DNA from: Oscillibacter valericigenes
GTDB lineage: Bacteria > Bacillota > Clostridia > Oscillospirales > Oscillospiraceae
NCBI RefSeq assembly: GCF_021531435.1
Contig: NZ_JAFBIS010000013.1
Span: forward strand, 1-64,000
DNA: 64,000 nt
Reading direction: 5' to 3'
The position numbers and the translations under genes are program-made. Shown one piece after another: positions 10,733-62,700 of this stretch. Each line of letters opens with the position of its first letter. Position 1 is the stretch's first letter. The notes beneath the pieces are model-generated. The model was given only the letters and a program-made list of their open reading frames with translations, was not told the DNA's origin and ran no database searches.

Positions 10733-11854
10733 TCACCCCTCCAGCTCCGTCAGAAACCGGCCCGGTGCGAACCGCTCCTCCTCCCGGAAGGCCTCCAGCA
10801 GGGCGTCCAGGTTGTCGTCGTCGTGCTCCAGCTCGGTGCTGAACCGCCGCAGGGCTTCGGGCAGGCCGCAGACGGAGGCCAGCCGCTCCACCGTCAGAAC
10901 GGCGAACGCGCACAGCTCCGCCCGGGACAGCAGGTCGCCGTCGTTGACGGTTTTCAGCAGGTAGCGGAAGGCAAAATACACGGCGATGCGCTCCAGCAGA
11001 TTTTCTGACTGGGGCGTTTTTTCGGCTTCCGCCCGGGACAGCAGGGCGGGCCAGTCCGGGTCCAGCACCTCCAGGGACGCCAGGAAGCGCAGCCCCCAGG
11101 GGAACAACCCCTCCTTCGCCGGAGGGATGTCCGCCTCCTCTGTGCCGGGCAGGTCTTCCGGGCGGTCGTCGTCCAGGCAGTCCTGGGCCGACAGTGCCAG
11201 AGAGAGGAAGGACGCCAGCCGGGCCTTCAGCGGACGGCTGCGGTCTGTCAGGATGTCCAGCAGCCGCTCCCGCAGGGGCAGCAGATATGTGAGCCATGCA
11301 TCTCCCTCGTCGTCACAAAGTCCGCTTTCCTCCGTTTCCCCCTGCGGGGAAAACTGCGCCCGCTCCCTTGTTCCTCCTCTCCCCACAGCACCCGCTTCGC
11401 TGGGCTGCTGCGGGGGCCCCGGAATATCACCCGCTTCTTCCGTTTCAAAAGTGTGGAAGGTCAGGGGGTCTTCGCTGCCCAGCAGCAGGGCGTTGGCCGC
11501 CGGACAGGAGGCGGACAGGGTGACCTCCCGGAAGGGGCCGTAGTCCTCCGTGAACCGGGGGTGCTCCCGGCAGGTGACGCTGGTGGCCGCCTCCCCCAGC
11601 TTGCGGTGGATCTCGCAGAGGTTGTCCCCGTCCAGAAACGGGCACCGCCCGCCGTTCAGGGGAAAGCACAGGTCGCCGTCCTCATCCCGCTTCAGGGCGG
11701 AGCGCAGCTTGTCCCCCAGGGGGCCGGACACCGTTTGATAGAGCGCGGCGGTGTCCTCGTCGATGACCACCTCCCACTTCTCGCAGCAGGTGTGGGGGCA
11801 GGCCCCCGCCAGACAGCGGAAATCTTCATAATAGTCGGGCACGGTCACACGCAT
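10733..11854 (-). CDS. FliB-like (flagellin lysine-N-methylase family) Cys-rich protein with an in-frame repeat insert
   Basis: 373 residues. The N-terminal half carries the Cys pattern of the FliB/YkgJ-type family: CLAGACPHTCC near residue 14, CPFLDGDNLC near 70, then CREHPR and SCPAAN, probably metal or Fe-S ligands. FliB methylates lysines of flagellin in enterobacteria; in Clostridia many members lie away from flagellar genes and the substrate is unknown. Residues 146-181 come from a 109-bp repeat that also occurs in the iron-sulfur gene 1.1 kb away. The start ATG overlaps the stop of the Crp/Fnr gene by one base, so the two are coupled. Confidence 0.75.
   Translation of the reverse strand: MRVTVPDYYEDFRCLAGACPHTCCEKWEVVIDEDTAALYQTVSGPLGDKLRSALKRDEDGDLCFPLNGGRCPFLDGDNLCEIHRKLGEAATSVTCREHPRFTEDYGPFREVTLSASCPAANALLLGSEDPLTFHTFETEEAGDIPGPPQQPSEAGAVGRGGTRERAQFSPQGETEESGLCDDEGDAWLTYLLPLRERLLDILTDRSRPLKARLASFLSLALSAQDCLDDDRPEDLPGTEEADIPPAKEGLFPWGLRFLASLEVLDPDWPALLSRAEAEKTPQSENLLERIAVYFAFRYLLKTVNDGDLLSRAELCAFAVLTVERLASVCGLPEALRRFSTELEHDDDNLDALLEAFREEERFAPGRFLTELEG
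11312..11420 (-). repeat. 109-bp in-frame repeat, copy A
   Basis: Read on the minus strand this matches copy B (12918-13026, plus strand) at 98 of 109 bases, with a 41-base stretch identical. It is read in the same phase in both host genes and gives a peptide containing RERAQFSPQGETE. It falls between the Cys-rich N-terminal part and the helical C-terminal part of the FliB-like protein. Confidence 0.85.
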
Positions 11855-45384: not shown

Positions 45385-46143
45385 ATGAACGAAAAGCGTG
45401 TCGGCAAACGCACCATCGCCCTGTCCCATCCCCCCTCTGTCATCTCCTACGCCAACATCGGCGGCAGGCAGGAGGCGGAGGGCCCCCTGTCCTCCTACTT
45501 TGACGAGCTGTCCGACGATTCCTTCTTCGGGGAAAAGACCTGGGAGAAGGCGGAGTCCACCATGCAGAAAAAGGTGGTCCAGCGGACGCTGGACCAGGCG
45601 AAGCTGAAGCCCGGCGACCTGGACTATATCTGCGCCGGGGACCTGCTGAACCAGTGCATCGGCTCCTCCTTCGGCCTGCGGGACTTCGGCATCCCCTTCT
45701 ACGGCCTGTACGGGGCCTGCTCCACCATGGGCGAATCCCTGTCTCTGGCGGCTATGCTCATCGACGGCGGCTACGCCCGCTATGCCGCCGCCGTCACCAG
45801 CTCCCACTTCTGCACCGCCGAGCGGCAGTACCGGATGCCGGTGCCCTACGGCAACCAGCGGCCCCCCACGGCCCAGTGGACCGCCACCGCCGCCGGCTGC
45901 ACCATCCTGGCGGACGACGGCCCCGGCCCCTATATCACCCACGTCACCTGCGGCAAGATCGTGGACCGGGGCATCAGCGACGTGAACAATATGGGCGCAT
46001 CCATGGCTCCCGTAAGTGTTAAGCTTACACCATCCAAGTATAATGCGGTATGCGGCTTGGTTTCTACACATCATTCTCTTCAACAAGGAGGTGCAAAAGG
46101 GGCAACAGTTATGGGAACCCATAACACTAACCATTTGAAATAA
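45385..46143 (+). pseudogene. spoVAD: spoVAD interrupted by the integrative element
   Basis: From the ATG at 45385 (GAGGTG 6 bases upstream) about 209 codons match SpoVAD: YANIGGRQEAEGPL, FDELSDDSFFG, the thiolase-like ACSTMGESLSLA and VDRGISDVNNMGASMAP. SpoVAD is normally about 335-340 residues and binds dipicolinic acid for import into the forespore. After the conserved MAP at 46009-46011 the frame continues for 43 unrelated codons (to 46143) into DNA of different composition. The missing third contains the rest of the thiolase-like fold, so the product should not function unless the element leaves. The remainder of spoVAD probably lies beyond the right edge. Confidence 0.85.
46005..46032. 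other. Probable left attachment junction
   Basis: SpoVAD homology ends at the CCC codon at 46009-46011. Immediately inside is an imperfect inverted repeat, GTAAG...CTTAC with overlapping GTGTTAAGCTTACAC symmetry (46012-46030), the sort of arm sequence a serine or tyrosine recombinase half-site would have. The core cannot be fixed without the other end. Confidence 0.5.
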
Positions 46144-46790: not shown

Positions 46791-47882
46791 TCACTTACTT
46801 CGAAATAGATGCTTGTATAAGTCGTCAATCCCTTTCTGCCTCCGACTCCAAGTAATGGGAGCAACTTCAAAGCCAGCTTCAGCCCCGAGCTCGATATAGC
46901 GATCCCGCGCTGTTCTTACCTTGTCGTTGTCCTGATAGTCAGAGTCGATCATGATATTCAACCTCTGGACCCCCAATTCACTCAGTTCCTGGAGAAGCCT
47001 CTCATACTGTGAATAGCTCGGCACACCAGTAAGGCCTGCAAAGCCACACTCGTATTGGCTGCCAAGAGCGAAGTGATAGGCAAGATCCGCCTTCATAACA
47101 CCCTCGGTCACGCAGACAACCTCGTCGCCTTCTTGAACTCCGACATAATGAGGGCAGCATCTGGCTGGGGTTCCATAGTACTTATCTACGCTGGTCAAGT
47201 TGTAGAATTTCTGGTTATAAACCCGATCCAGCCGAACCTGTATTGCCTCAATCTGACCATCAAAATTGCGGTCGGGAATCATGATGCCCGACCCTCTGAT
47301 GTCCAGAGTCCATTGGCCGGTCTCCTTCTGGCAATAGAATCCCGGAACACCATCCAGAACACAGCCACGCTCTAATAACTCCGTTACAATGCGCTTGAGC
47401 CTTGTTGTCGGAGTTGTGCGATAGCCCAACTGCTCAATCTCATCTTGGGTCAGGCCGCGTTCTCGTAAGGAGGCTTGATGCGTAGGACACAGGGAAAGCA
47501 GAGAAAGGAGATTGGAATAGGTGTTATCCCGGACTTCTGCTGATGCAATTGGCAACTCCACCGTCTCAATCACTCTTCGCTTCGGACTACACTCTCGCGG
47601 CTTTTCTCCACTCTCGGAGCCAAATACCTTGCAGAGTTCCTCATAGGCAGTATGGAGCGAGACATCGCAGAACTCTGCGTAAAGGTGGAGGATACCTCCA
47701 CCTTTCCCGCAGCGATTGCATCGAAACACATTGTCTCGGATTTTCACATTCAAATGAGCTTTTCGATCTGCGCAAAATGGGCACCGGCAGTGCAACTGTG
47801 TGCCGGTATCCCGTATGACTTCGATACCAAGCAAGTCCACTACCTGCTCAATGTCACATGGCAGATCTGGTATTCTGCCCAT
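46791..47882 (-). CDS. Primase-like protein with CHC2 zinc finger and TOPRIM-type domain
   Basis: 363 residues from the ATG at 47882; a TTG one codon earlier is equally well spaced from GGAGGTGA. The N-terminus is a CHC2-type zinc finger (CPFCADRKAHLNVKI...FRCNRCGKGGG, residues 35-64) as in DnaG. The C-terminal half contains a TOPRIM-like arrangement: VVCVTEGVMKADLAYH (Glu) and LNIMIDSDYQDNDKV (DxD). The RNA-polymerase core of DnaG is not evident, as in small mobile-element primases. It likely primes or recognises DNA during element replication. Confidence 0.8.
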   Translation of the reverse strand: MGRIPDLPCDIEQVVDLLGIEVIRDTGTQLHCRCPFCADRKAHLNVKIRDNVFRCNRCGKGGGILHLYAEFCDVSLHTAYEELCKVFGSESGEKPRECSPKRRVIETVELPIASAEVRDNTYSNLLSLLSLCPTHQASLRERGLTQDEIEQLGYRTTPTTRLKRIVTELLERGCVLDGVPGFYCQKETGQWTLDIRGSGIMIPDRNFDGQIEAIQVRLDRVYNQKFYNLTSVDKYYGTPARCCPHYVGVQEGDEVVCVTEGVMKADLAYHFALGSQYECGFAGLTGVPSYSQYERLLQELSELGVQRLNIMIDSDYQDNDKVRTARDRYIELGAEAGFEVAPITWSRRQKGIDDLYKHLFRSK

Positions 47883-47911
47883 CAAAGATCACCTCCCTCA
47901 TCGGGGATTCT

Positions 47912-48779: not shown

Positions 48780-50990
48780 CTACGCCACTCGCTTGCTCAT
48801 CTCGCGGTTATAGTACGCCACGATCCGATCAGCAAGGACGGTGTTTCTCTGACCCACATCACACTTGTGGATCGCAATGTAAACTGCCTGGCGTTGCCCA
48901 ATCAGGATCACTTTCGCCTTCGCCCTGGTCACTGCCGTGTAAAGCAGATTCCTACGCAGCATGATATAGTGCTCCTTCAGCAGCGGCACAATGATGACTG
49001 GATACTCCTGGCCTTGGCTCTTATGGATCGTGAGGCAGTAGGAGAATTCAACATCCTCCATCATGTCCTTCGAATAGCGCAGTTCGCGCCCATCGAGCAA
49101 CCGGATATCCACAAACACCTCATCGTCTTCCTTTTCCATGCCGGTAATCAGGCCAACATCGCCATTCGACACTCCATTCCGGTTTGCCGTCTGCATGATG
49201 CGGTCACCAACACGAAAGACCCGACTGCCGCACTTCAGTTCCATCTTCCGCATGCTTGCAGGATTGACCAGATCCCGGATCGTCTCATTCAGCGCATTCG
49301 ATGCAACAGAACCGCGCTTTCGGAAAGGCGACAGAATCTGCACATTCTCCAAGCCATGCTGACTCACTTCCTGCAGATAGTTCTTGACTACCAGCTGCGC
49401 AGCGTCCTCTGCATTCTGGACCTCAAGCATCTGGAAGTCGTCACCGTACTGCAAATGGGTATCATTGTGATTGATCGCATGGGCATTTACGATGATCCGA
49501 CTATTGGACGCCTGACGGAAGATTGTGTCAAGAACTGCCGTTGGTACCTTCTCACTCCGAATCATCTCTCTCAGCACATTTCCTGCGCCAACCGAGGGGA
49601 GCTGATCAGCGTCACCGACAATCAGCAACTGGGCCCCCGGCTTGATGCGTTCCAGCAGGATATACGCCAGCCTCATATCTACCATTGAGAATTCGTCCAC
49701 CACGATCAGATCTGCTGGAAGCAGTTCCGTATCATTTAAGGGACTCTCCTCATCTGTGATGAGGCCAAGCGCTGAGTGTAGCGTCGAAGCAAACATTCCA
49801 GTCTGCTCTGCCATACGCCGACTTGCTCGTCCAGTCGGAGCCGCAAGAAGGATCTCATTGGAGGGATACTCCTTCTTGTAGATATCCAGAATGAACCGCA
49901 GTGTCGTCGTCTTGCCGCTGCCCGGTCCACCAGTCATAATGGAGATGGGATGTGAGAGGCAAAGCTTGACTGCTTTGCGTTGTGACGGCGCCAGCTTCTG
50001 CTTGAGCGTTTGTTCCGCCTGATCAATTTTCTCGTCCAGGTCATAGATCTCTTCGAAATCTTCCTGGAGGATCATTGAAACAATCCGCTTGGCCGCTTTG
50101 ACTTCACACATGCGCTCATAGCTCAGATAGACACGGGTTCCTTCCACATAGATGCGTGACTCAAGCCTCTCATTTGAGATAGCTTGCCGAATCTCACCTT
50201 CCGATACGACCTCAGCCTCACAGTCGGAGTTCAGCAGATCATAGCAGCGGCCCACAGTCTCATCTACGCTTAAAAACAGGTGACCGGACACCCGGGCTTC
50301 ATCCAGCACATAGTTGATTGCGCCGGCATACCGCATTGGGTGTTTGAGGCTCACTTTAGTCTTCCTTGCGATTGAGTCTACTGTCATGAAGCCAAAGCCT
50401 TTGATCCTGCAAAGCTGAAATGGGTCTGTTTTCACGATTTGAAGGCTCTGATCTCCGAACTCCTCTTTGATCATGGCTGCCTTCTTCATCGATACGCCAA
50501 ATGGTGCCAAATAGATCATCAGGTCGCTCAGTGCCTTCGTCTCCTCATAGGAAGCGACGATGGTCTTGAGTTTGGTCCTTGCAATACCGCGTATGCTCAG
50601 TAGTTGCTGAGGGTTCTGGTCCAGAACCTCCATCGTCTTATCACCGAACTTTGCGACAATCGCCTTGGCAATCTCCGGGCCGACACCTTTGATGATGCCG
50701 CTGCTCAGATACGCCAGGACACCAGCTTGATCCGTTGGCACAATTTGTTTGCAAGTCGTAACTGACATCTGCAATCCATGTTTCGACTGCTCCCAGGTCC
50801 CATCCAATTCAACTTCGACCACATTGGTCGAGACAAGATGATACCCGACAGCAGTGAAATGGATCTTGTCATCACTGAAAAATGTGTTCTTTCTCGCTTC
50901 TTTGGGGACAGACTCATCCTGCGTGCTATATGAAAACACGCAGTAACCGTTGTCCGATTGGAAGATCGCACGGTCGAATCTGCATAACAT
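48780..50990 (-). CDS. recD2: RecD2-type superfamily 1 DNA helicase
   Basis: 736 residues from the ATG at 50990 (GAGGTGA 8 bases upstream); a GTG three codons earlier is possible. An N-terminal OB/helix-hairpin-helix part (ISSGIIKGVGPEIAKAIVAKF, LLSIRGIA) precedes the helicase core: Walker A GGPGSGKTTTLRFI near 357, IVVDEFSMVDM, GDADQLPSVGAG and the C-terminal TIHKSQGQEYP plus LYTAVTRAK. It is a 5'-3' helicase acting without RecBC, probably with the adjacent exonuclease. Confidence 0.92.
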   Translation of the reverse strand: MLCRFDRAIFQSDNGYCVFSYSTQDESVPKEARKNTFFSDDKIHFTAVGYHLVSTNVVEVELDGTWEQSKHGLQMSVTTCKQIVPTDQAGVLAYLSSGIIKGVGPEIAKAIVAKFGDKTMEVLDQNPQQLLSIRGIARTKLKTIVASYEETKALSDLMIYLAPFGVSMKKAAMIKEEFGDQSLQIVKTDPFQLCRIKGFGFMTVDSIARKTKVSLKHPMRYAGAINYVLDEARVSGHLFLSVDETVGRCYDLLNSDCEAEVVSEGEIRQAISNERLESRIYVEGTRVYLSYERMCEVKAAKRIVSMILQEDFEEIYDLDEKIDQAEQTLKQKLAPSQRKAVKLCLSHPISIMTGGPGSGKTTTLRFILDIYKKEYPSNEILLAAPTGRASRRMAEQTGMFASTLHSALGLITDEESPLNDTELLPADLIVVDEFSMVDMRLAYILLERIKPGAQLLIVGDADQLPSVGAGNVLREMIRSEKVPTAVLDTIFRQASNSRIIVNAHAINHNDTHLQYGDDFQMLEVQNAEDAAQLVVKNYLQEVSQHGLENVQILSPFRKRGSVASNALNETIRDLVNPASMRKMELKCGSRVFRVGDRIMQTANRNGVSNGDVGLITGMEKEDDEVFVDIRLLDGRELRYSKDMMEDVEFSYCLTIHKSQGQEYPVIIVPLLKEHYIMLRRNLLYTAVTRAKAKVILIGQRQAVYIAIHKCDVGQRNTVLADRIVAYYNREMSKRVA

Positions 50991-51002
50991 TGTGATCACC
51001 TC

Positions 51003-52040
51003 TTACGCGATGGCCGCCTTGACCACCTTGAAAATTCTCGACTCCGACTGCTCCACGAACTCGTCGTACACATCAGGGTACTGAGCACGCAGCGCAGACA
51101 GCTTGTCTTTTGAGATACCTTCACGATACTGCGGATTATAGGTGATTCGAAACACCTCGCTTCCGCTCTCACATGAGGCTCGACATGCAGTTCCCATCTG
51201 CTCTACAATCGGGGCATACAGGGTCTTAATCCGCGTTTCCAGCGCCTTTGACTGGGCATCCAGATTCTTCTTCTCCTCTTTGAGTGTCATGATCTCGCTG
51301 AGGCTATTGAGGAATTTACTGTCCAGTTCCACATCCGGCTCAGACTTATCTGCCGGGCCGAAAAAGCGGCGCAGTGACTCAAGCACAGCATCAGGCTTCT
51401 CGACCAGAGGCGGTTCGACCCGAGCCAGCACATGGTTGTTCCAAAACGCCTCCAGTGCCAGGATCGTATTCTCCTCTTCCTCAACATCGCGCTCAATCTT
51501 CTGCCACACAAAGTCGTTCTCATTGTTGGAGAACAAGCATGCGATGAAGGCGACATCGATGTTCATGACCGACATATAGTGGCGGACCTGAAGCTCATAA
51601 TGGCGTGGCACAGCGCCGTTGGCCCATTTGAACTGCATATCATAGTGCGCGGTTTTGCACTCCAGGATTGCCTTGCGGCCATCAGGGAGCAGGACAAACC
51701 GGTCCACATCGGCGATCAGGAAGGGATACAGAGGATGCTGATACATCCAGTGGTCTTCATAGACAGTGAGGCCGGTCTTCTTGGCGAAGATTTGAGCGAC
51801 CACATCTTCGAGCAAATGCCCAATCTGGAATGTGATGCTCTTATCCGGACCTTCGACTGCAGGAGCGACGCCGATCTTATCGTAGTAGAGATCGCGCGCA
51901 GTTCGATACGGAGACATATTTAGGGCGGCGGCAACATCGCTGCCGCCAATCCCTTTCTTTCTCCAGTCCAGCCACTGGTCTTCCGTCAAGGTAGTGATAT
52001 CGACCAGACGCGTTGGGGTGTAATTCATGTCCAATGCCAT
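51003..52040 (-). CDS. YqaJ-type (lambda exonuclease-like) recombinase nuclease
   Basis: 345 residues. The YqaJ core is clear: WLDWRKKGIGGSDVAAALNMSPY at the N-terminus, then the PD-(D/E)xK site in LIADVDRFVL...AILECKTAHYD and QVRHYMSVM. A coiled-coil-like stretch (LKEEKKNLDAQSKALETRIKTLY) follows near 255. It should resect double-stranded ends 5'-3' to give single strands for an annealing protein, as in phage two-gene recombination systems. AGGAGG precedes the ATG. Confidence 0.9.
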   Translation of the reverse strand: MALDMNYTPTRLVDITTLTEDQWLDWRKKGIGGSDVAAALNMSPYRTARDLYYDKIGVAPAVEGPDKSITFQIGHLLEDVVAQIFAKKTGLTVYEDHWMYQHPLYPFLIADVDRFVLLPDGRKAILECKTAHYDMQFKWANGAVPRHYELQVRHYMSVMNIDVAFIACLFSNNENDFVWQKIERDVEEEENTILALEAFWNNHVLARVEPPLVEKPDAVLESLRRFFGPADKSEPDVELDSKFLNSLSEIMTLKEEKKNLDAQSKALETRIKTLYAPIVEQMGTACRASCESGSEVFRITYNPQYREGISKDKLSALRAQYPDVYDEFVEQSESRIFKVVKAAIA

Positions 52041-52608: not shown

Positions 52609-53373
52609 TCATTTCTTTTCTTGTGTTATGAGATCCAGCTGTGCGAACATTCTCCGCCAATGCCAGACATCCCTGAAATACATTGGGGTAAGCCAGACAT
52701 TTGGGCTGTTCTTGGGGATAAGTCCGTCCTCATCGTAGCTTTGCGCCGGATGAAGGATGGAATCGTCGATGACCACATAGCCGGGACAGCCGAGTAGGCT
52801 CATTTGGATGTAGCACATGCACCCCGCCAAGAAGTCGATGTCTTGCGCGACAAAGAAAACGGAAGTCTGATAGTTGATGTGGTTCCTTTTGCACTCGTTT
52901 GCGAAGGCAAGCAGTAATGCACCGGCCCCACAGGCAGGATCACTCACGGATACCCAGCCTTTTTCCTCTATCTGACTTTTCAGATCCTCACCCAGATTCA
53001 TGGCTGCCATTGCTCTGCAGATATGGTAAGGCGTGAAGAACTGCCCCTTCCACTCATTCGCAAGGCCCAATGCCATGAACAGCTCGCCAAGCATATCCTG
53101 ATCTGGATTTTGCTCCATCTCATCGACAACTTCGGCGAGCATCTGCGCAAAGACTTCCAGTTCAGAGGTTGCGTATTTTTTGCTACGCTCCAGATACATC
53201 GCTTCACGTTGCTCTCTGTATGGGCCACCGAAAGCATTAGCAATGCTGACGGCAGACAGGACAATGAAATCCTGCCAAATATCCCACCTGGAATAGCGCC
53301 CTTCCAGAGAGTTCAGAAGCTTGATGATGGTCTTTTGCCTCTCACCCTTCGGGTAGTAAACAGCTTTGGCCAT
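52609..53373 (-). CDS. N-6 DNA methylase-fold protein without a visible catalytic motif
   Basis: 254 residues from the ATG at 53373; a GTG four codons upstream overlaps the previous gene. The SAM-binding motif I DPACGAGALLLAF near 155 and the preceding GQFFTPYHICRAMA resemble type I HsdM proteins. The expected catalytic (D/N)PP(Y/F) is not seen; the matching region reads IDDSILHPAQSYDEDG. The protein ends soon after. It may bind SAM or DNA without methylating, or act as an antirestriction or regulatory protein. No specificity or restriction subunit is nearby. Confidence 0.75.
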   Translation of the reverse strand: MAKAVYYPKGERQKTIIKLLNSLEGRYSRWDIWQDFIVLSAVSIANAFGGPYREQREAMYLERSKKYATSELEVFAQMLAEVVDEMEQNPDQDMLGELFMALGLANEWKGQFFTPYHICRAMAAMNLGEDLKSQIEEKGWVSVSDPACGAGALLLAFANECKRNHINYQTSVFFVAQDIDFLAGCMCYIQMSLLGCPGYVVIDDSILHPAQSYDEDGLIPKNSPNVWLTPMYFRDVWHWRRMFAQLDLITQEKK

Positions 53374-53378
53374 CGCAA

Positions 53379-54530
53379 TCACCACTTGAAGTCGCCAGGG
53401 TGATCATACTCGTGCCAGTTCACATTCAGTGCCCGGCTGACGATCTCCTCAAGCTGCGCAATCCGCAGACCGGAAGCGCCATCACACTGGGCGGAGAAGA
53501 TGACATCACTCATCTGCATGAAAAGCTCATACGCAGTACAGGGGTCATCTCCGTGGATTGCCACAAAGTAGTCCATTGCCTCGTAAGAAGCCTTCTTCGG
53601 CGCCCCAATGCGCTTCAGAACCCGCATCAGGGTGGTAACAGGATAGCGAATCTCAATGTTGAGGAGCTGCACCTGCTTGTCTACTGCCTTTTCAAACTGT
53701 GCATAGACAAGGCCAAGCTGTTCCTCAAAAAACTCCATGTCATATCCGCTCTTATGCTGTGTCCGCAGGGGATAGCCCAGAGGAATGATCCGGCTTTCAT
53801 TGCCGGCCAGCAGGATCGGATACAGATTGGCGCCACTCATGCCCACATCAGAGGTGGAGAATCGGAGCGCAGGGATGAGCTTCGCAGGGTTCAGCCCCTT
53901 GGCAGCCACTTCCCGACGATAGGTGTCCAGAAGCTGGTCTGCCTGCCCATCCAGGCGCCAGATTGCAGTGGCGATCGTGTGATCAAAATGTGCGGTCATA
54001 AACTGATTGCCTGGGTACTCTTTGTCCAGGTAATCGCATACCGCCTTGAACAGTGGCAGCATCTCCATCACGGTGTAGTCCTTGGGATCACCGCCATGTA
54101 CCGCAGAGACCTTCTGATCTGCAATCTTGATCAGGCTGTCGCCAGAGGCAACGCCCATGCAGTAGTTGAGGATCTCCGCAAATACAGTCTTGGAGACTTT
54201 GTTCAGTGCATGTCCGGAGATGCGGGCACGCTCCAGAACGGTCTTGATGGCACAGGAGCGGACGGGGTAGTCCTTACCATCGACCTTCAGCAGAAGGCTG
54301 GTATTCTCCATCGTGTCTTCAAGTACATCGGCCGCCCCATTGTGGTCGTAGATCTTCATGTAGAGATCGCCGAGTGCGGACCCCTTCTCAACCGGCTCAA
54401 ACCGCAGGTCTTTCGAAGGTGCCGTCATCCACTTGCTCTTTGCCTTGCGCTCGCCAAGAAACTGAAAGAAGTCCCTAGGTTCGCTGAAAGAGCAACTGAA
54501 GTCGTCCGCGAATACTTTGGTTTCCATCAT
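53379..54530 (-). CDS. Conserved-looking hypothetical protein, 383 aa
   Basis: I do not recognise the family with certainty. The protein is soluble and mixed alpha/beta, with no signal peptide, beginning MMETKVFADDFSC and containing YPVRSCAIKTVLERARISGHALNKVSK-like and TAHFDHTIATAIWRL stretches. The tone resembles large phage/plasmid proteins of the DUF932 type. AAAGGTGG precedes the ATG, and it opens the recombination/replication operon downstream of a terminator. Confidence 0.65.
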   Translation of the reverse strand: MMETKVFADDFSCSFSEPRDFFQFLGERKAKSKWMTAPSKDLRFEPVEKGSALGDLYMKIYDHNGAADVLEDTMENTSLLLKVDGKDYPVRSCAIKTVLERARISGHALNKVSKTVFAEILNYCMGVASGDSLIKIADQKVSAVHGGDPKDYTVMEMLPLFKAVCDYLDKEYPGNQFMTAHFDHTIATAIWRLDGQADQLLDTYRREVAAKGLNPAKLIPALRFSTSDVGMSGANLYPILLAGNESRIIPLGYPLRTQHKSGYDMEFFEEQLGLVYAQFEKAVDKQVQLLNIEIRYPVTTLMRVLKRIGAPKKASYEAMDYFVAIHGDDPCTAYELFMQMSDVIFSAQCDGASGLRIAQLEEIVSRALNVNWHEYDHPGDFKW

Positions 54531-55528: not shown

Positions 55529-55827
55529 ATTACATCCTTCAATGGTACTTTGCGTTCCACAAACCATCTTCCAATGACATTTCCACTCAGGTTGGTAGAA
55601 CGCTCAAAATACAAATAGGTTCTTTGCCCATTCACCTGAATTGTATATCGGTCACCTTGTCCACCAGCCTTTGCCGCATAGGCAGGTCGAATATCAATCA
55701 CACGGTCTACATCGTACTTCATGCCGTCTTCCCAGACGATCATGCGCGGCAGCATCACACCCTCTGAGGAAAAATCCACGGTAACCGAAACATAGACCTT
55801 ATAAGCTACACCCGGCAGCATAGTCAA
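55525..55827 (-). CDS. Small hypothetical protein, 100 aa
   Basis: Beta-rich: YKVYVSVTVDFSSEGVMLPR, RYTIQVNGQRTYLYFER. An in-frame ATG two codons in (55821) is also possible. It overlaps ImmA by 4 bases and the next gene by 4 bases, so all are translationally coupled. This size and pattern recur in clostridial elements; function unknown. Confidence 0.6.
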   Translation of the reverse strand: MTMLPGVAYKVYVSVTVDFSSEGVMLPRMIVWEDGMKYDVDRVIDIRPAYAAKAGGQGDRYTIQVNGQRTYLYFERSTNLSGNVIGRWFVERKVPLKDVI

Positions 55828-56408
55828 TTCAGGGGCTGCCCCAAATCGCGCTTCAGGAAGTCCCCATGCGCAATATACGGAGCTTTGATCTCAACGCCCT
55901 CACGCTGCAAAATACGCAGCTTGAAATCCAGAAGTTCAGGCGGAACACAGAGGCAGCTTGCGATTTGGAAGAAGTCCATCTGCTGCTGCAGCGCTTCAAA
56001 AACATCCTCATCATTCAAGAGGAACTCCGCTGCGAAAATGTTCGCTTCATACTCCATGCGGTCTGTATCATCCAGGAAGGTAAACTCATGGAATGCGCTG
56101 ATAGCAGAGTCGCTGTGCAAATCAGCATGTCCAAGTTCATGCACAAGGATGATCCTCTGGATGCTCTCCGGCAGGTCGCTGTTGATCATGATGAGCTTGC
56201 AGCGTGAAGAGACCAAGAAGAACCCTTTGCAGGACTTCGCACTCTTCCCCATAGGCCGCTTCATGACCTGGATCTTCATTGCCCGACAGATCTCATACGG
56301 ATCGTCTGTCTGGTATTTCATTTTCAAACGATTCGCTTCTTGCTTGATGGCAAACGCTAGCAACTCACTCACCTCGCTCAAAGAAAACAATGTCTTTGTG
56401 TGCAGCAT
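55824..56408 (-). CDS. ImmA/IrrE-family metallopeptidase
   Basis: About 194 residues from the ATG at 56408; the start is uncertain because it lacks a ribosome site, and a TTG at about 56366, after GAGGTGAGTGAG, is possible. The zinc-peptidase motif HELGHADLH and the downstream MEYEANIFAAEFLL Glu are intact. In ICEBs1-type elements ImmA cleaves the immunity repressor ImmR to induce excision. The gene directly downstream of an XRE regulator matches that arrangement. Confidence 0.85.
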   Translation of the reverse strand: MLHTKTLFSLSEVSELLAFAIKQEANRLKMKYQTDDPYEICRAMKIQVMKRPMGKSAKSCKGFFLVSSRCKLIMINSDLPESIQRIILVHELGHADLHSDSAISAFHEFTFLDDTDRMEYEANIFAAEFLLNDEDVFEALQQQMDFFQIASCLCVPPELLDFKLRILQREGVEIKAPYIAHGDFLKRDLGQPLN

Positions 56409-56451
56409 AAGGATACCACATAGGGTGTCCCAAAAACCGTACAACGCACTC

Positions 56452-56889
56452 TTATTTCTTATAGTCCTTCCGGGTGAATGTTTCGCTGGCGCGCTTCTTA
56501 TTTGCAAAATAGGCCTCCGTCACGGCCTGGAAGAAAAGCTCCTTGTCCTCTTCCGGAACATCACCACCGGCAAACATCGCACGGGTCTGTGTCAGCAGCT
56601 GCTCCACATCCGTTGCGCCTTTCTTGCCGTAGATAGCACGCGCACTCTCGATATAAGGAGCTTCCTCAAGTCCATAGGTCTCATCTTCAATCTCATCTTT
56701 GAGTAAGTAGGCCTCAGACACATTCAGGACAGTGCATAGTTTGCGAAGGTTCAACCCACGGGGCTTGGAACCGGCAGCTTCATAGCTGCTAATGGTCCGG
56801 ACAGTCGTACCGACCTGATCGGCTAGGTCTTTCTGCGTCATATTCAGCGTAATGCGACGATCTCTGATTTTCTCTCCAGTCGTTTTCAT
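56452..56889 (-). CDS. XRE-family regulator, probable ImmR-like immunity repressor
   Basis: 145 residues. N-terminal helix-turn-helix (IRDRRITLNMTQKDLADQVGTTVRTISSYEAAG), then a helical C-terminus (residues 75-145). It is followed by an ImmA-like protease and is divergent from polY across 227 bases holding a repeat array, so it probably represses the plus-strand module until cleaved. Confidence 0.85.
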   Translation of the reverse strand: MKTTGEKIRDRRITLNMTQKDLADQVGTTVRTISSYEAAGSKPRGLNLRKLCTVLNVSEAYLLKDEIEDETYGLEEAPYIESARAIYGKKGATDVEQLLTQTRAMFAGGDVPEEDKELFFQAVTEAYFANKKRASETFTRKDYKK

Positions 56890-57116: not shown

Positions 57117-58361
57117 ATGGGAGAAAGAGTTGTAGTGCATAGTGACCTCAACAACTGCTATGCCAGTATCGAGTGCATGCTGCATCCAGAACTTCGCGGG
57201 AAGTATATCGCCGTATGTGGCAGCACGGAAGATCGTCATGGCATCGTTCTGGCCAAAAATCAATTGGCAAAACAATGTGGCGTGAAGACGGGAGATGTGA
57301 TCTGGGAAGCGAAGCAGAAGTGTCCGCAGTTGACGATTGTGCCGCCGCACATGGATCAGTATTTGAAGTTCTCCAAGATTGTGAGATCCATCTATCTGCG
57401 GTACTCACCGGAAGTAGAGTCTTTTGGCATCGACGAAAGCTGGATCGAGCTGACTGGCTCATCTCGGCTCCATCACCAGACACCTTATGAAATCGCAAAT
57501 GAGATCCGCAAAACTGTGAAGGCAGAGGTCGGCTTGACCGTGTCCATCGGTGTCAGCTTCAATAAGATCTTTGCCAAATTGGGATCTGACATGAAAAAGC
57601 CAGATGCAGTGACTGAGATCACGAAGGAGTCTTTCCGGGACCAGGTATGGCCATTACCTGCTTCCGACCTTCTTTATGTCGGGCGGGCCACGACGGAGAA
57701 ACTTCGCCGTTACGGCATTCATACCATTGGAGACCTTGCGAAAGCAGATCCCGACATGCTGGTGCGGCTGCTGGGGATCAACGGAGAGAAACTCTGGATC
57801 TATGCCAATGGCCTGGATACCTCTCGGGTCATGCCCTGCGATTATGATCCCCCAATCAAGAGTATTGGGCATGGAATTACCTGCAATGCGGATCTGCTGA
57901 CGAAGGACGAGGTCCGGCATGTTTTTATGGAGCTTTCGCAAGAAGTCGGGCTGAAACTCCGCAAACGCAATCTGGCTGCCACCAGGGTGAAGATCAGCGT
58001 CCGGGACAACACATTGGCCCATCGAGAGTACCAGGGCAAGTTGCCCTTCCCCACCCAAAGCTACACAGAGATTGCTGCTGCAGGCTTCGACCTGTTCTAC
58101 CAGCGCCACACCTGGAATAGTGACATCCGCTCTCTGACGATCAGCGCAATTGACCTGGTCCCGGCCGACACACCGATCCAGTTAGACCTATGGACTGACT
58201 ACACCAAGCACAAAAAGCGCCTTGCTCTGGAGCGAACGGTCGAAGATATCCGTAAGCGCTTCGGCCTGCAATCCATCAACTTTGCAGCACTCACCTCCGG
58301 GCTGAAAATGCCAGCTCATCGTGAGGTCGAATACAAAATGCCGTCTGTTATGTACCACTAA
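57117..58361 (+). CDS. Y-family DNA polymerase (DinB/UmuC type)
   Basis: 414 residues. Catalytic acidic residues are in VVHSDLNNCYASIE and VESFGIDESWIEL; the little-finger region follows (SQEVGLKLRKRNLAATRVKISVRD). It is a lesion-bypass polymerase. AGGAGG stands 9-10 bases before the ATG. On mobile elements these are usually induced with excision or conjugation. The next gene encodes a UmuD-fold protein, as expected for a UmuC-like pair. Confidence 0.92.
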   Translation: MGERVVVHSDLNNCYASIECMLHPELRGKYIAVCGSTEDRHGIVLAKNQLAKQCGVKTGDVIWEAKQKCPQLTIVPPHMDQYLKFSKIVRSIYLRYSPEVESFGIDESWIELTGSSRLHHQTPYEIANEIRKTVKAEVGLTVSIGVSFNKIFAKLGSDMKKPDAVTEITKESFRDQVWPLPASDLLYVGRATTEKLRRYGIHTIGDLAKADPDMLVRLLGINGEKLWIYANGLDTSRVMPCDYDPPIKSIGHGITCNADLLTKDEVRHVFMELSQEVGLKLRKRNLAATRVKISVRDNTLAHREYQGKLPFPTQSYTEIAAAGFDLFYQRHTWNSDIRSLTISAIDLVPADTPIQLDLWTDYTKHKKRLALERTVEDIRKRFGLQSINFAALTSGLKMPAHREVEYKMPSVMYH

Positions 58362-59132: not shown

Positions 59133-60062
59133 ATGATTATTTCTGTCGATCACGGCAATAAATCCATCAAAACGCCGCACGCTATTTTCACTTCCGGCCT
59201 GGTTATGTCGGACGGGCTTCAGGGATTCAAAACGGACTACATCGGCTGGAATGGGAAGTACTATTCGCTGACGGAGCGGCGCATCTCGTACCTGCGTGAT
59301 AAAACCGAGGATGACCGTTTCTTCATTCTGACCCTCTTTGCGATTGCGAAGGAACTGGAGTATCGGGATGTTTCTGAGACTTTGGATCCCATCGACATCA
59401 CGCTCCTGGTTGGTCTCCCGCCCGCACATTACGAACAGCTGCACAGCCGCTTCGAGCAGTACTTTCTGCGTCGGCGGGAAGCCATTGACTTTGAGTACAA
59501 TGGCAAGTACTACTCCGTTCGCATCAATAAGGTTCTGAGCTATCCTCAGGCATTTGCTGCCGCTGTCACGCAGTACAGCACCCTGAAGGTGCACTCCGTC
59601 GCTTATATCATTGATATTGGCGGATTCACCATTGATGTTCTGAAACTGCGCTTTGGCCGGCCAGACCTGGAAGTGGTGGAGAGTTTTGAAAAGGGTGTGA
59701 TCACCCTCTACAACAGCATTGCCAGCAAGTGTAACTCCCAATACGCTCGCATCCTGGAAGAGTGCGAGATCGACGAGGTCATCCGGAATCAGCCCACGGT
59801 GCTGCCAGGAGAGGTGCAGCAACTGATCCGCATCATGACTTCGGACTTTCTGGCCGAGTTCTACAACTTCCTCCGTGAACGCGGTATCGATGTCAGCACC
59901 AGTAAATGCGTGTTTGCCGGTGGCGGCTCGCTGCTGCTGCGCGGCATGATTGAAAGGGGTAACAAGGTAGCTTTCCCCATTTTCATCGAGGATATTCACG
60001 CCAACGCCATTGGTTATGAGGTTCTGTATCAGAGCGAGGTGGCGTCAAGTGGCAAACAATAA
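59133..60062 (+). CDS. ParM-like actin-type segregation ATPase
   Basis: 309 residues with the actin fold motifs: phosphate-1 IISVDHGNKSIKT, phosphate-2 YIIDIGGFTIDVLKLR and adenosine-binding CVFAGGGSLLLRGM. Such proteins form filaments that push plasmid copies apart. AGGAGG lies upstream. The ParR gene overlaps its end by 14 bases. Confidence 0.88.
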   Translation: MIISVDHGNKSIKTPHAIFTSGLVMSDGLQGFKTDYIGWNGKYYSLTERRISYLRDKTEDDRFFILTLFAIAKELEYRDVSETLDPIDITLLVGLPPAHYEQLHSRFEQYFLRRREAIDFEYNGKYYSVRINKVLSYPQAFAAAVTQYSTLKVHSVAYIIDIGGFTIDVLKLRFGRPDLEVVESFEKGVITLYNSIASKCNSQYARILEECEIDEVIRNQPTVLPGEVQQLIRIMTSDFLAEFYNFLRERGIDVSTSKCVFAGGGSLLLRGMIERGNKVAFPIFIEDIHANAIGYEVLYQSEVASSGKQ

Positions 60063-61908: not shown

Positions 61909-62700
61909 TTACTGTGCGCGCTCGCAAAACTGGCGCAGGATCTCCCGGAGATCCAGAGGAAGGCGCTCCATGCACTCCTTCTTCAGGTCGCCCGGTACGC
62001 CATAGAAGCCTTCCGCAATGGCGCCCGCCATATCGGCGATGGTATCACTATCACCGCCTAGGGAAACAGCCGTGCGGATCACATCCTCGAAATCCGTTCC
62101 TTCCAGGAATGCGGTGATTGCTTCAGGAACACTTCCCTGGCAGGTCTCATCCATGCGGTAGGTCGGTCGGATCTCATCACAGGTACGGCTCAGATCATAG
62201 CCGAACTCCTGAACGATGTAGTCCCGGATCTCATCCTTGGTGCTCCCAGTACGGGCTAGGAAGATGGCACTGGCAATGGCTTCTGCACCCTTATAGCCTT
62301 CAGGGTGATTGTGGCTGACAGAAGCCGTAATCCGTGCCAGATTTCTGACTGACTCCAGATCATCGCAGAGCCAGGCAACGGAAGATACCCGCATTCCGGA
62401 GCCGTTGCCGTAGCTCTCATAAGGCTTTGGATCCTTCGAGAACATCCAGTGGAAGAATCTGCCGCCATAGCCGCAGTAGGGATAGCGCCGGCCGATGGAC
62501 TGCATGGATCGGGCCAAGCGGGCCTTCAGGTCTTCGCCCTCCTCTGCATTCATGAGCGCCTGAGCAACTGCCAGCGTCATAACCGTATCATCGGTAAACT
62601 CCGATCGGTCACAAAAGAGTGGAAAGTCCTTCGCCTTATAGTTATTGGCATTGAATTCATAAGGGCTGCCAACGATATCACCCAGGATTGCTCCAAACAT
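61909..62700 (-). CDS. ADP-ribosylglycohydrolase (DraG-family)
   Basis: 263 residues. The Mg2+-binding motifs of the family are complete: FTDDTVMTLA near 36, and GGDSDTIADMAGAIAEG near 215, with MFGAILGDIVGSPYEF at the N-terminus. It removes ADP-ribose from proteins, nucleic acids or small molecules. The ATG at 62700 is 6 bases from the stop of the VWA gene, so the pair is probably co-translated. On an element it could be anti-toxin-like, defensive or housekeeping. Confidence 0.9.
   Translation of the reverse strand: MFGAILGDIVGSPYEFNANNYKAKDFPLFCDRSEFTDDTVMTLAVAQALMNAEEGEDLKARLARSMQSIGRRYPYCGYGGRFFHWMFSKDPKPYESYGNGSGMRVSSVAWLCDDLESVRNLARITASVSHNHPEGYKGAEAIASAIFLARTGSTKDEIRDYIVQEFGYDLSRTCDEIRPTYRMDETCQGSVPEAITAFLEGTDFEDVIRTAVSLGGDSDTIADMAGAIAEGFYGVPGDLKKECMERLPLDLREILRQFCERAQ

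Follow-up and report, generated by a model that had tools for sequence, protein, structure and literature searches.

A large serine recombinase element splits spoVAD in Oscillibacter valericigenes and may leave and re-enter the gene around sporulation

In Oscillibacter valericigenes, the sporulation gene spoVAD is split by an integrated element that carries a large serine recombinase. The break lies in the window, a 64,000-nucleotide stretch comprising positions 1 to 64,000 of contig NZ_JAFBIS010000013.1 (C4 in our numbering), and falls on the codons of the conserved M-A-P motif. According to published work (PMC13059800), SpoVAD plugs the spore channel from its cytoplasmic side, and spores cannot accumulate dipicolinic acid without it. 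The split itself is confirmed; we consider it likely that the element is precisely excised in sporulating cells, so that the gene is rejoined, after which the element would return.

The two parts of the gene were located by searching the genome (2.80 Mb, 93 contigs, 96.8% complete) with the SpoVAD profile PF07451. Window positions 45403-46026 match profile positions 1-208 of 329 (E 9.7e-85), and the sole other match, at C2:72686-73069 on the minus strand, covers positions 201-328 (E 4.8e-52); no second complete spoVAD was found besides these two part-matches in this 96.8%-complete assembly. The 5' part (45385..46011, plus strand) runs from the ATG at 45385 to the proline codon of M-A-P at 46009-46011 and holds codons 1-209, with the other 129 codons on contig C2. 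Beyond the proline, unrelated, element-encoded codons continue in frame as a tail to the truncated protein (46012..46143, plus strand) and end in a stop at 46141-46143. Guanine-plus-cytosine (GC) content steps from 0.637 upstream of 46011 to 0.509 downstream on C4, and from 0.636 on the host side to 0.476 on the element side of C2. At the right junction (C2 73061/73060, CCC|GCCGCC), the spoVAD frame resumes with GCCGCCTAC immediately past CCC. Joined in silico, the halves give an in-frame gene of 338 codons, equal to the intact gene of O. valericigenes An860 (G070), and the solved structure 3lma aligns across the join of the rejoined protein.

The An860 genome also supplies the empty site: one uninterrupted locus covers both flanks. 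Its left-flank match (82% identity) ends at base 2108 and its right-flank match (84%) begins at base 2110, leaving a single base between them. These results bear out a sequence-only reading of the window, which had placed the end of SpoVAD similarity right after the M-A-P motif, noted the lower-GC region that follows, attributed both to an integrative element, and predicted that the remaining codons would be found at the far end of the element, oriented the same way and beside a recombinase gene. The two observations named there as contrary, a second complete spoVAD and a missing 3' half, were not made in the genome search. The part of the element on C4 starts at 46012, fills the window to 64000 and runs on to the contig end at C4:76008; it is marked by the GC step and is absent from An860. 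Contig C4 ends in an 82-bp repeat that also opens contig C21, so C4 and C2 are unbridged and the element size is a lower bound, at least 30.0 + 28.1 kb (at least 58 kb).

The element gene nearest the C2 remnant of spoVAD, with its 3' end toward that remnant, encodes a 560-aa protein whose resolvase, recombinase and zinc-ribbon domains (PF00239, PF07508, PF13408, PF14287) identify it as a large serine recombinase. Its best full-length match among solved structures is the SPbeta integrase (9dxh, E 3.9e-23). The attL exchange region (46003..46012, plus strand) reads ATGGCTCCC plus the next G, of which CCCG is common to the right junction; the bases common to both junctions fall on the M-A-P codons. 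The left attachment (att) arm, GTAAGTGTTAAGCTTACACCATCC (46012..46035, plus strand), is an imperfect inverted repeat of the right arm: the two window arms match at 14 of 27 positions against a shuffled mean of 10.3, a score reached in 7 of 500 shuffles. Junctions of the main type have a left arm like GTAGATGTTAAAATAGGACCATAA and a right arm like TTATGGTCTACCCTTGACATCTTCCCC, and in 21 of the 28 genomes with both junctions, no more than 25 of 500 shuffles do as well in the inverted-repeat test. On either side of the exchange point, the arms of the predicted main-type attP form an imperfect inverted repeat.

The split recurs in other genomes. We count 57 genomes, the window's included, with spoVAD split at or near the same site (1 + 16 + 16 + 24), genomes present under two handles being counted once on the basis of equal coordinates (G107=G061, G359=G065 and eight others from the G359 genus). 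A one-genome-per-species collection yielded 75 loci with recombinase relatives; SpoVAD was examined in 25 of the host genomes, of which 16 have the split at profile positions ~205|201, 8 are intact and 1 has no SpoVAD match. In a sample of 394 genomes of the order, 351 have a SpoVAD match and 18 of these are split here (13 with both halves, 5 with one half; junctions read). Of 80 genomes searched within the genus of G359, 71 have a match, and 33 of these are split with the junction read; the rest comprise 32 full-length or nearly full-length genes (one with two stops), 3 ambiguous cases at contig ends, 1 frameshifted gene, 1 contig-end fragment and 1 weak match. Breaks at contig ends were left out (G232, G089, G299, G036, G022, G009, G461, G463, G520), as was G078, which has an intact gene and whose C-half contig shares its coordinates with G068, probably through shared binning. 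A metagenome-assembled genome with 3% contamination, G251, holds two different 5' halves (G251:C43:531-1148 and G251:C16:42735-43355), which carry near-identical att arms, and one 3' half.

In six genomes a single contig spans the two halves and the complete element, with element sizes of ~4.7 kb (G422), 8 kb (G379), 22 kb (G473), 27 kb (G074), 28 kb (G067) and 53 kb (G072). The three main open reading frames (ORFs) of the 4.7-kb element encode a chemoreceptor, a DUF6870 protein and the recombinase. Cargo differs between elements: inspection by eye shows that G067 has restriction-modification and mobilisation genes, and that the 27-kb element of G074 (L120-L121) is a polysaccharide locus with glmM- and glmS-like genes, the loss of which could be costly to growing cells.

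The 23 recombinases taken from split genomes form one clade, on one side of a single branch (support 100/99), and all 15 SpoVAD-bearing hosts examined for relatives outside that branch (6 + 9) have the gene intact. One further recombinase, L063, is too short for placement, and its host is intact for spoVAD; another, L010, lies within the clade in a genome without a SpoVAD match. Viral contigs gave 9 recombinase relatives (best 38% identity), and the 434 plasmid records with a match are all below 60% identity, with 33-40% among the 15 matches listed. In An860, a fragment at L019 6001-6873, away from the intact spoVAD, is 99% identical to residues 271-560 of the window recombinase, apparently the trace of a recent transfer.

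Other recombination systems also seem to hit this stretch of spoVAD. In four f15 genomes (G117, G160, G133, G224) and in G449, the break falls on these codons or ~20 bases away, and no recombinase of the split-genome clade was found in the stretches fetched from them. The att sequence of the four f15 genomes differs from the main type; G449 has a recombinase of 26% identity and a break ~20 bases upstream. These five are included in the 57 without a claim that the element is of the same type. In G117 (L175, L163) and G160 (L176, L164), host-like genes lie beside both halves of the gene, which is split at the same codons, with no recombinase found nearby; the flanking genes are by eye MutY-like and ArgS-like, which makes an inversion at the same site possible.

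We therefore asked whether the split gene is still used. In the species pair G069/G073 the element is colinear, with 6.9 kb next to the N half at 90% identity and 3.8 kb next to the C half at 93%. Nonsynonymous and synonymous divergence (dN/dS) is 0.019/0.289 for the N half, 0.018/0.42 for the C half and 0.031/0.275 for the recombinase (323 codons). Because dS is alike for all three (0.29, 0.42, 0.28), the insertion probably predates the parting of the two species; the dN-to-dS ratios (omega) are 0.066 and 0.043 for the N and C halves. The more divergent pair G379/G320, in which only ~2 kb of C-side element is comparable, agrees (N half 0.164/1.394; C half 0.093/1.12). Genus-wide omega, from pairwise counts in the genus of G359, has an N-half median of 0.077 among split genomes (19 pairs) and 0.127 among intact ones (16 pairs). 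Both halves are under purifying selection, including in a species pair that inherited the insertion.

Reading frames tell the same story. In the genus of G359, every one of the 26 C halves from split genomes has an open frame of 128-131 codons. By contrast, G513 and G531 have an intact copy plus an attR remnant, and the C half in that remnant is truncated or frameshifted (Fisher p 0.0026, on only two intact-copy genomes). Truncated C halves in G490 and G512 were rejected as cases of decay, since both stop at contig ends. Split genomes also retain SpoVAC/SpoVAE (32/33) and GPR (29/33). With both halves so well kept, spoVAD is probably still used, and hence rejoined; between restoration and a dead gene, comparison across genomes favours the former. 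In the genus of G359 (e.g., L225, L247), the spoVAD ribosome site sits in the 3' arm of a terminator-like hairpin before the start codon. A stem of at least 8 occurs in 12/30 split and 10/29 intact genomes, against 1-2% of shuffles; the hairpin is kept in both classes and may block translation of read-through transcripts.

Features around the recombinase bear on how excision could be controlled. A DUF6870 gene lies just upstream of it in 23 of 24 split genomes examined; the profile was built from 16 of those 24, and Pfam names DUF6870 in all 4 proteins submitted. By position, the DUF6870 protein is a candidate directionality factor. Upstream of the recombinase genes a shared extended -10 box lies within a dyad; by eye the pattern is clear in most of the printed regions and was not located for the G379 and G320 recombinases. 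The dyad, GGCGATATG..CATATCGCC, overlaps the -10 box (e.g., L003 near 10930-11010) and is likely an operator. This arrangement resembles that of the constitutive integrases of SPbeta and the Clostridioides difficile skin element, for which published accounts have a directionality factor set the timing.

In the reading we prefer, precise excision in cells heading for sporulation would rejoin the 338-codon gene, the cut being made by the element's own large serine recombinase, with the DUF6870 protein turning integration into excision. SpoVAD acts on the forespore side, so the forespore genome should be the one that needs the rejoined gene, and excision would fall before asymmetric division or within the forespore. 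Excision would then take place in the germline, and the element would need a way back. The circle may ride in the spore beside the single chromosome, where the absence of replication would protect it from dilution; at outgrowth, after loss of the factor, integration of attP into attB would require only the recombinase. More tentatively, we propose that such a germline cycle—exit from spoVAD in the forespore lineage to allow loading of the spore with dipicolinic acid, a circular state through dormancy and re-entry at germination—is used by the recombinase clade across gut Clostridia, with other systems reaching the same stretch independently.

Several observations weigh against this proposal. 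The purifying-selection data concern genomes other than that of the window, and the C-half median omega is higher among split genomes (0.102, 12 pairs) than among intact ones (0.049, only 3 pairs). Recombinases cross species: for G063-G077 and G066-G067, recombinase dS is 0.33-0.36 against an N-half dS of 1.65-2.5. One recombinase within the clade, L027 (long branch, support 87/86), had been predicted to come from a split genome; the prediction was wrong, spoVAD being intact there. No joined attP was found by pattern search of the fetched loci, and neither an excised circle nor a rejoined gene was seen in the sequences examined. A sigma-G pattern upstream of spoVAD occurs at chance level (1/59, 0.9 expected), and no sporulation-type promoter was recognised at the recombinase, which has the conserved extended -10 box instead. 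The DUF6870 protein is a candidate factor by position; G074 lacks the gene, the gene also lies beside recombinases at 11 loci outside split genomes, and its predicted model gave no fold match at E <= 0.001.

Some of these observations would suit a selfish insertion, in which spoVAD is dead in carriers that are sporulation mutants or rare sporulators and the halves are intact only because the event is recent. Movement of recombinases between species and the mosaic make-up of the G359 genus, where split genomes stand beside intact ones, fit such a history, and the gene can evidently be lost, since element-free G481 (frameshift) and G487 (two stops) have broken copies; sporulation genes have also been called suitable attachment sites, being dispensable for growth (PMC4191935). 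The low omega in G069/G073, which inherited the insertion, the open C halves in 26 of 26 genomes against decay where an intact copy exists, and the retained sporulation genes all argue the other way, and we regard this explanation as unlikely. We give somewhat less credence still to unprogrammed excision, whereby activity of the kind seen in integrative and conjugative elements (ICEs) or plasmids releases the element from a minority of cells at no particular time; those cells alone would sporulate well, and the element would persist in the others or by transfer. The VirB4-like, ImmA-like and actin-like genes of the window element and the vegetative look of the recombinase promoter are consistent with it, as is the C. 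botulinum yin element, reported as excised in some cells at every time point (PMC10747680). The 4.7- and 8-kb elements nonetheless persist in spoVAD with no transfer genes in their ORF lists, and every spore generation would lose them if they did not come back.

Excision confined to the mother cell, as for skin, with SpoVAD supplied from there, would agree with published elements of this kind being mostly in mother-cell genes; for spoVAD we think it very improbable. We find it harder still to credit that the halves are made as separate peptides that assemble without rejoining: both are open frames under selection, but inspection of the printed junctions by eye shows no ribosome site ahead of the C half, and main-type junctions start the C half with att-arm codons. 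To an assembly artefact we give next to no weight. The genome is a 93-contig draft in which C4 and C2 are unbridged, yet the junctions lie 30.0 and 28.1 kb inside contigs, and the six genomes with everything on one contig refute an artefact for the family.

Among known systems, Listeria carries a phage in comK that returns after excision. That gene is restored by prophage excision (active lysogeny; PMC4191935), but it is not a sporulation gene, and the phage is not carried through dormancy. Published accounts of intervening elements name sigK, spsM, spoVFB, spoVR and gerE (mother-cell genes or events), together with yabG and kamA. The window element resembles these in that it interrupts a sporulation coding region, carries a site-specific recombinase and has junctions that rejoin exactly in frame. 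Like it, skin in sigK (Bacillus subtilis, C. difficile) is a large serine recombinase element; in C. difficile the recombinase is described as sigma-A dependent, with a 72-aa protein setting direction (PMC5025042). Unlike spoVAD, which serves the forespore side and holds an ICE-like or minimal element, sigK is a mother-cell gene from which skin is excised in the mother cell. SPbeta in spsM also uses a large serine integrase, which is constitutive and has a timed factor (PMC4191935); it differs in being a prophage excised in the mother cell from a gene not essential for heat-resistant spores. The gin element in gerE of Bacillus cereus is likewise a non-phage element in a sporulation gene and is reported to have a serine recombinase plus a factor (PMC5595907), but gerE is a mother-cell regulator gene, and gin has three recombinases, spans 28.6 kb and occurs in one species group. 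The yin element in yabG of C. botulinum interrupts another clostridial sporulation gene, and its circle has been seen (PMC10747680), but it is prophage-like and reported from one strain. No report of spoVAD split by a serine recombinase, prophage, mobile element or integrase was listed in searches of the open-access literature, most subscription papers and all preprints lying outside that scope; spoVA genes listed as cargo of gut genomic islands (PMC6907783) are a different claim.

Large versions such as the window element appear to carry replication, partition-like and conjugation genes as well. On the minus strand of the window lie genes for a primase-like zinc-finger protein (46791..47885; PF01807, 2.8e-8), a RecD2-like helicase (48780..50999; PF14490, PF13604), a YqaJ-like recombination protein (51003..52040; PF09588, 1.8e-26), an N6-adenine methylase-like protein (52609..53385; PF02384, 6.3e-9) and an ImmA-like metallopeptidase (55824..56507; PF06114, 3.7e-18), the last adjoined by an XRE-like repressor ORF (56452-56889; by eye, from the ORF list). 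The plus strand encodes a Y-family DNA polymerase (57117..58361; PF00817, 4.2e-39) and an actin-like protein, possibly for plasmid-type partition (59133..60062; PF17989, 3.4e-8). An ADP-ribosylglycohydrolase lies at 61909-62700 and has, by eye, a look-alike ORF in the C2 part of the element. The ICE-like character suggested by the sequence-only reading is supported by an integrase with att sites and by a VirB4-like conjugal ATPase match (3.5e-41) over a 367-aa part of its protein, which at 141 bits stays below the curated cut-off of 325; TraG P-loop and C39 peptidase matches accompany it. No relaxase or coupling protein was found among the element proteins scanned, the element being incompletely assembled.

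The published sporulation rearrangements considered here rely on the death of the mother cell, whose genome loses the element while that of the spore keeps it. An element in spoVAD does not fit this scheme, because the gene is needed in the very cell from which the next generation arises. Restoration of the gene would mean that spore-formers carry out a reversible rearrangement of germline DNA, and the recurrence of the split makes restoration testable by polymerase chain reaction in any cultivable carrier, with the 4.7-kb version as a compact recombinase and partner for study. The element may also bear on how ICEs pass through spores and, more speculatively, on why gut Firmicutes rich in sporulation genes can be hard to sporulate in culture.
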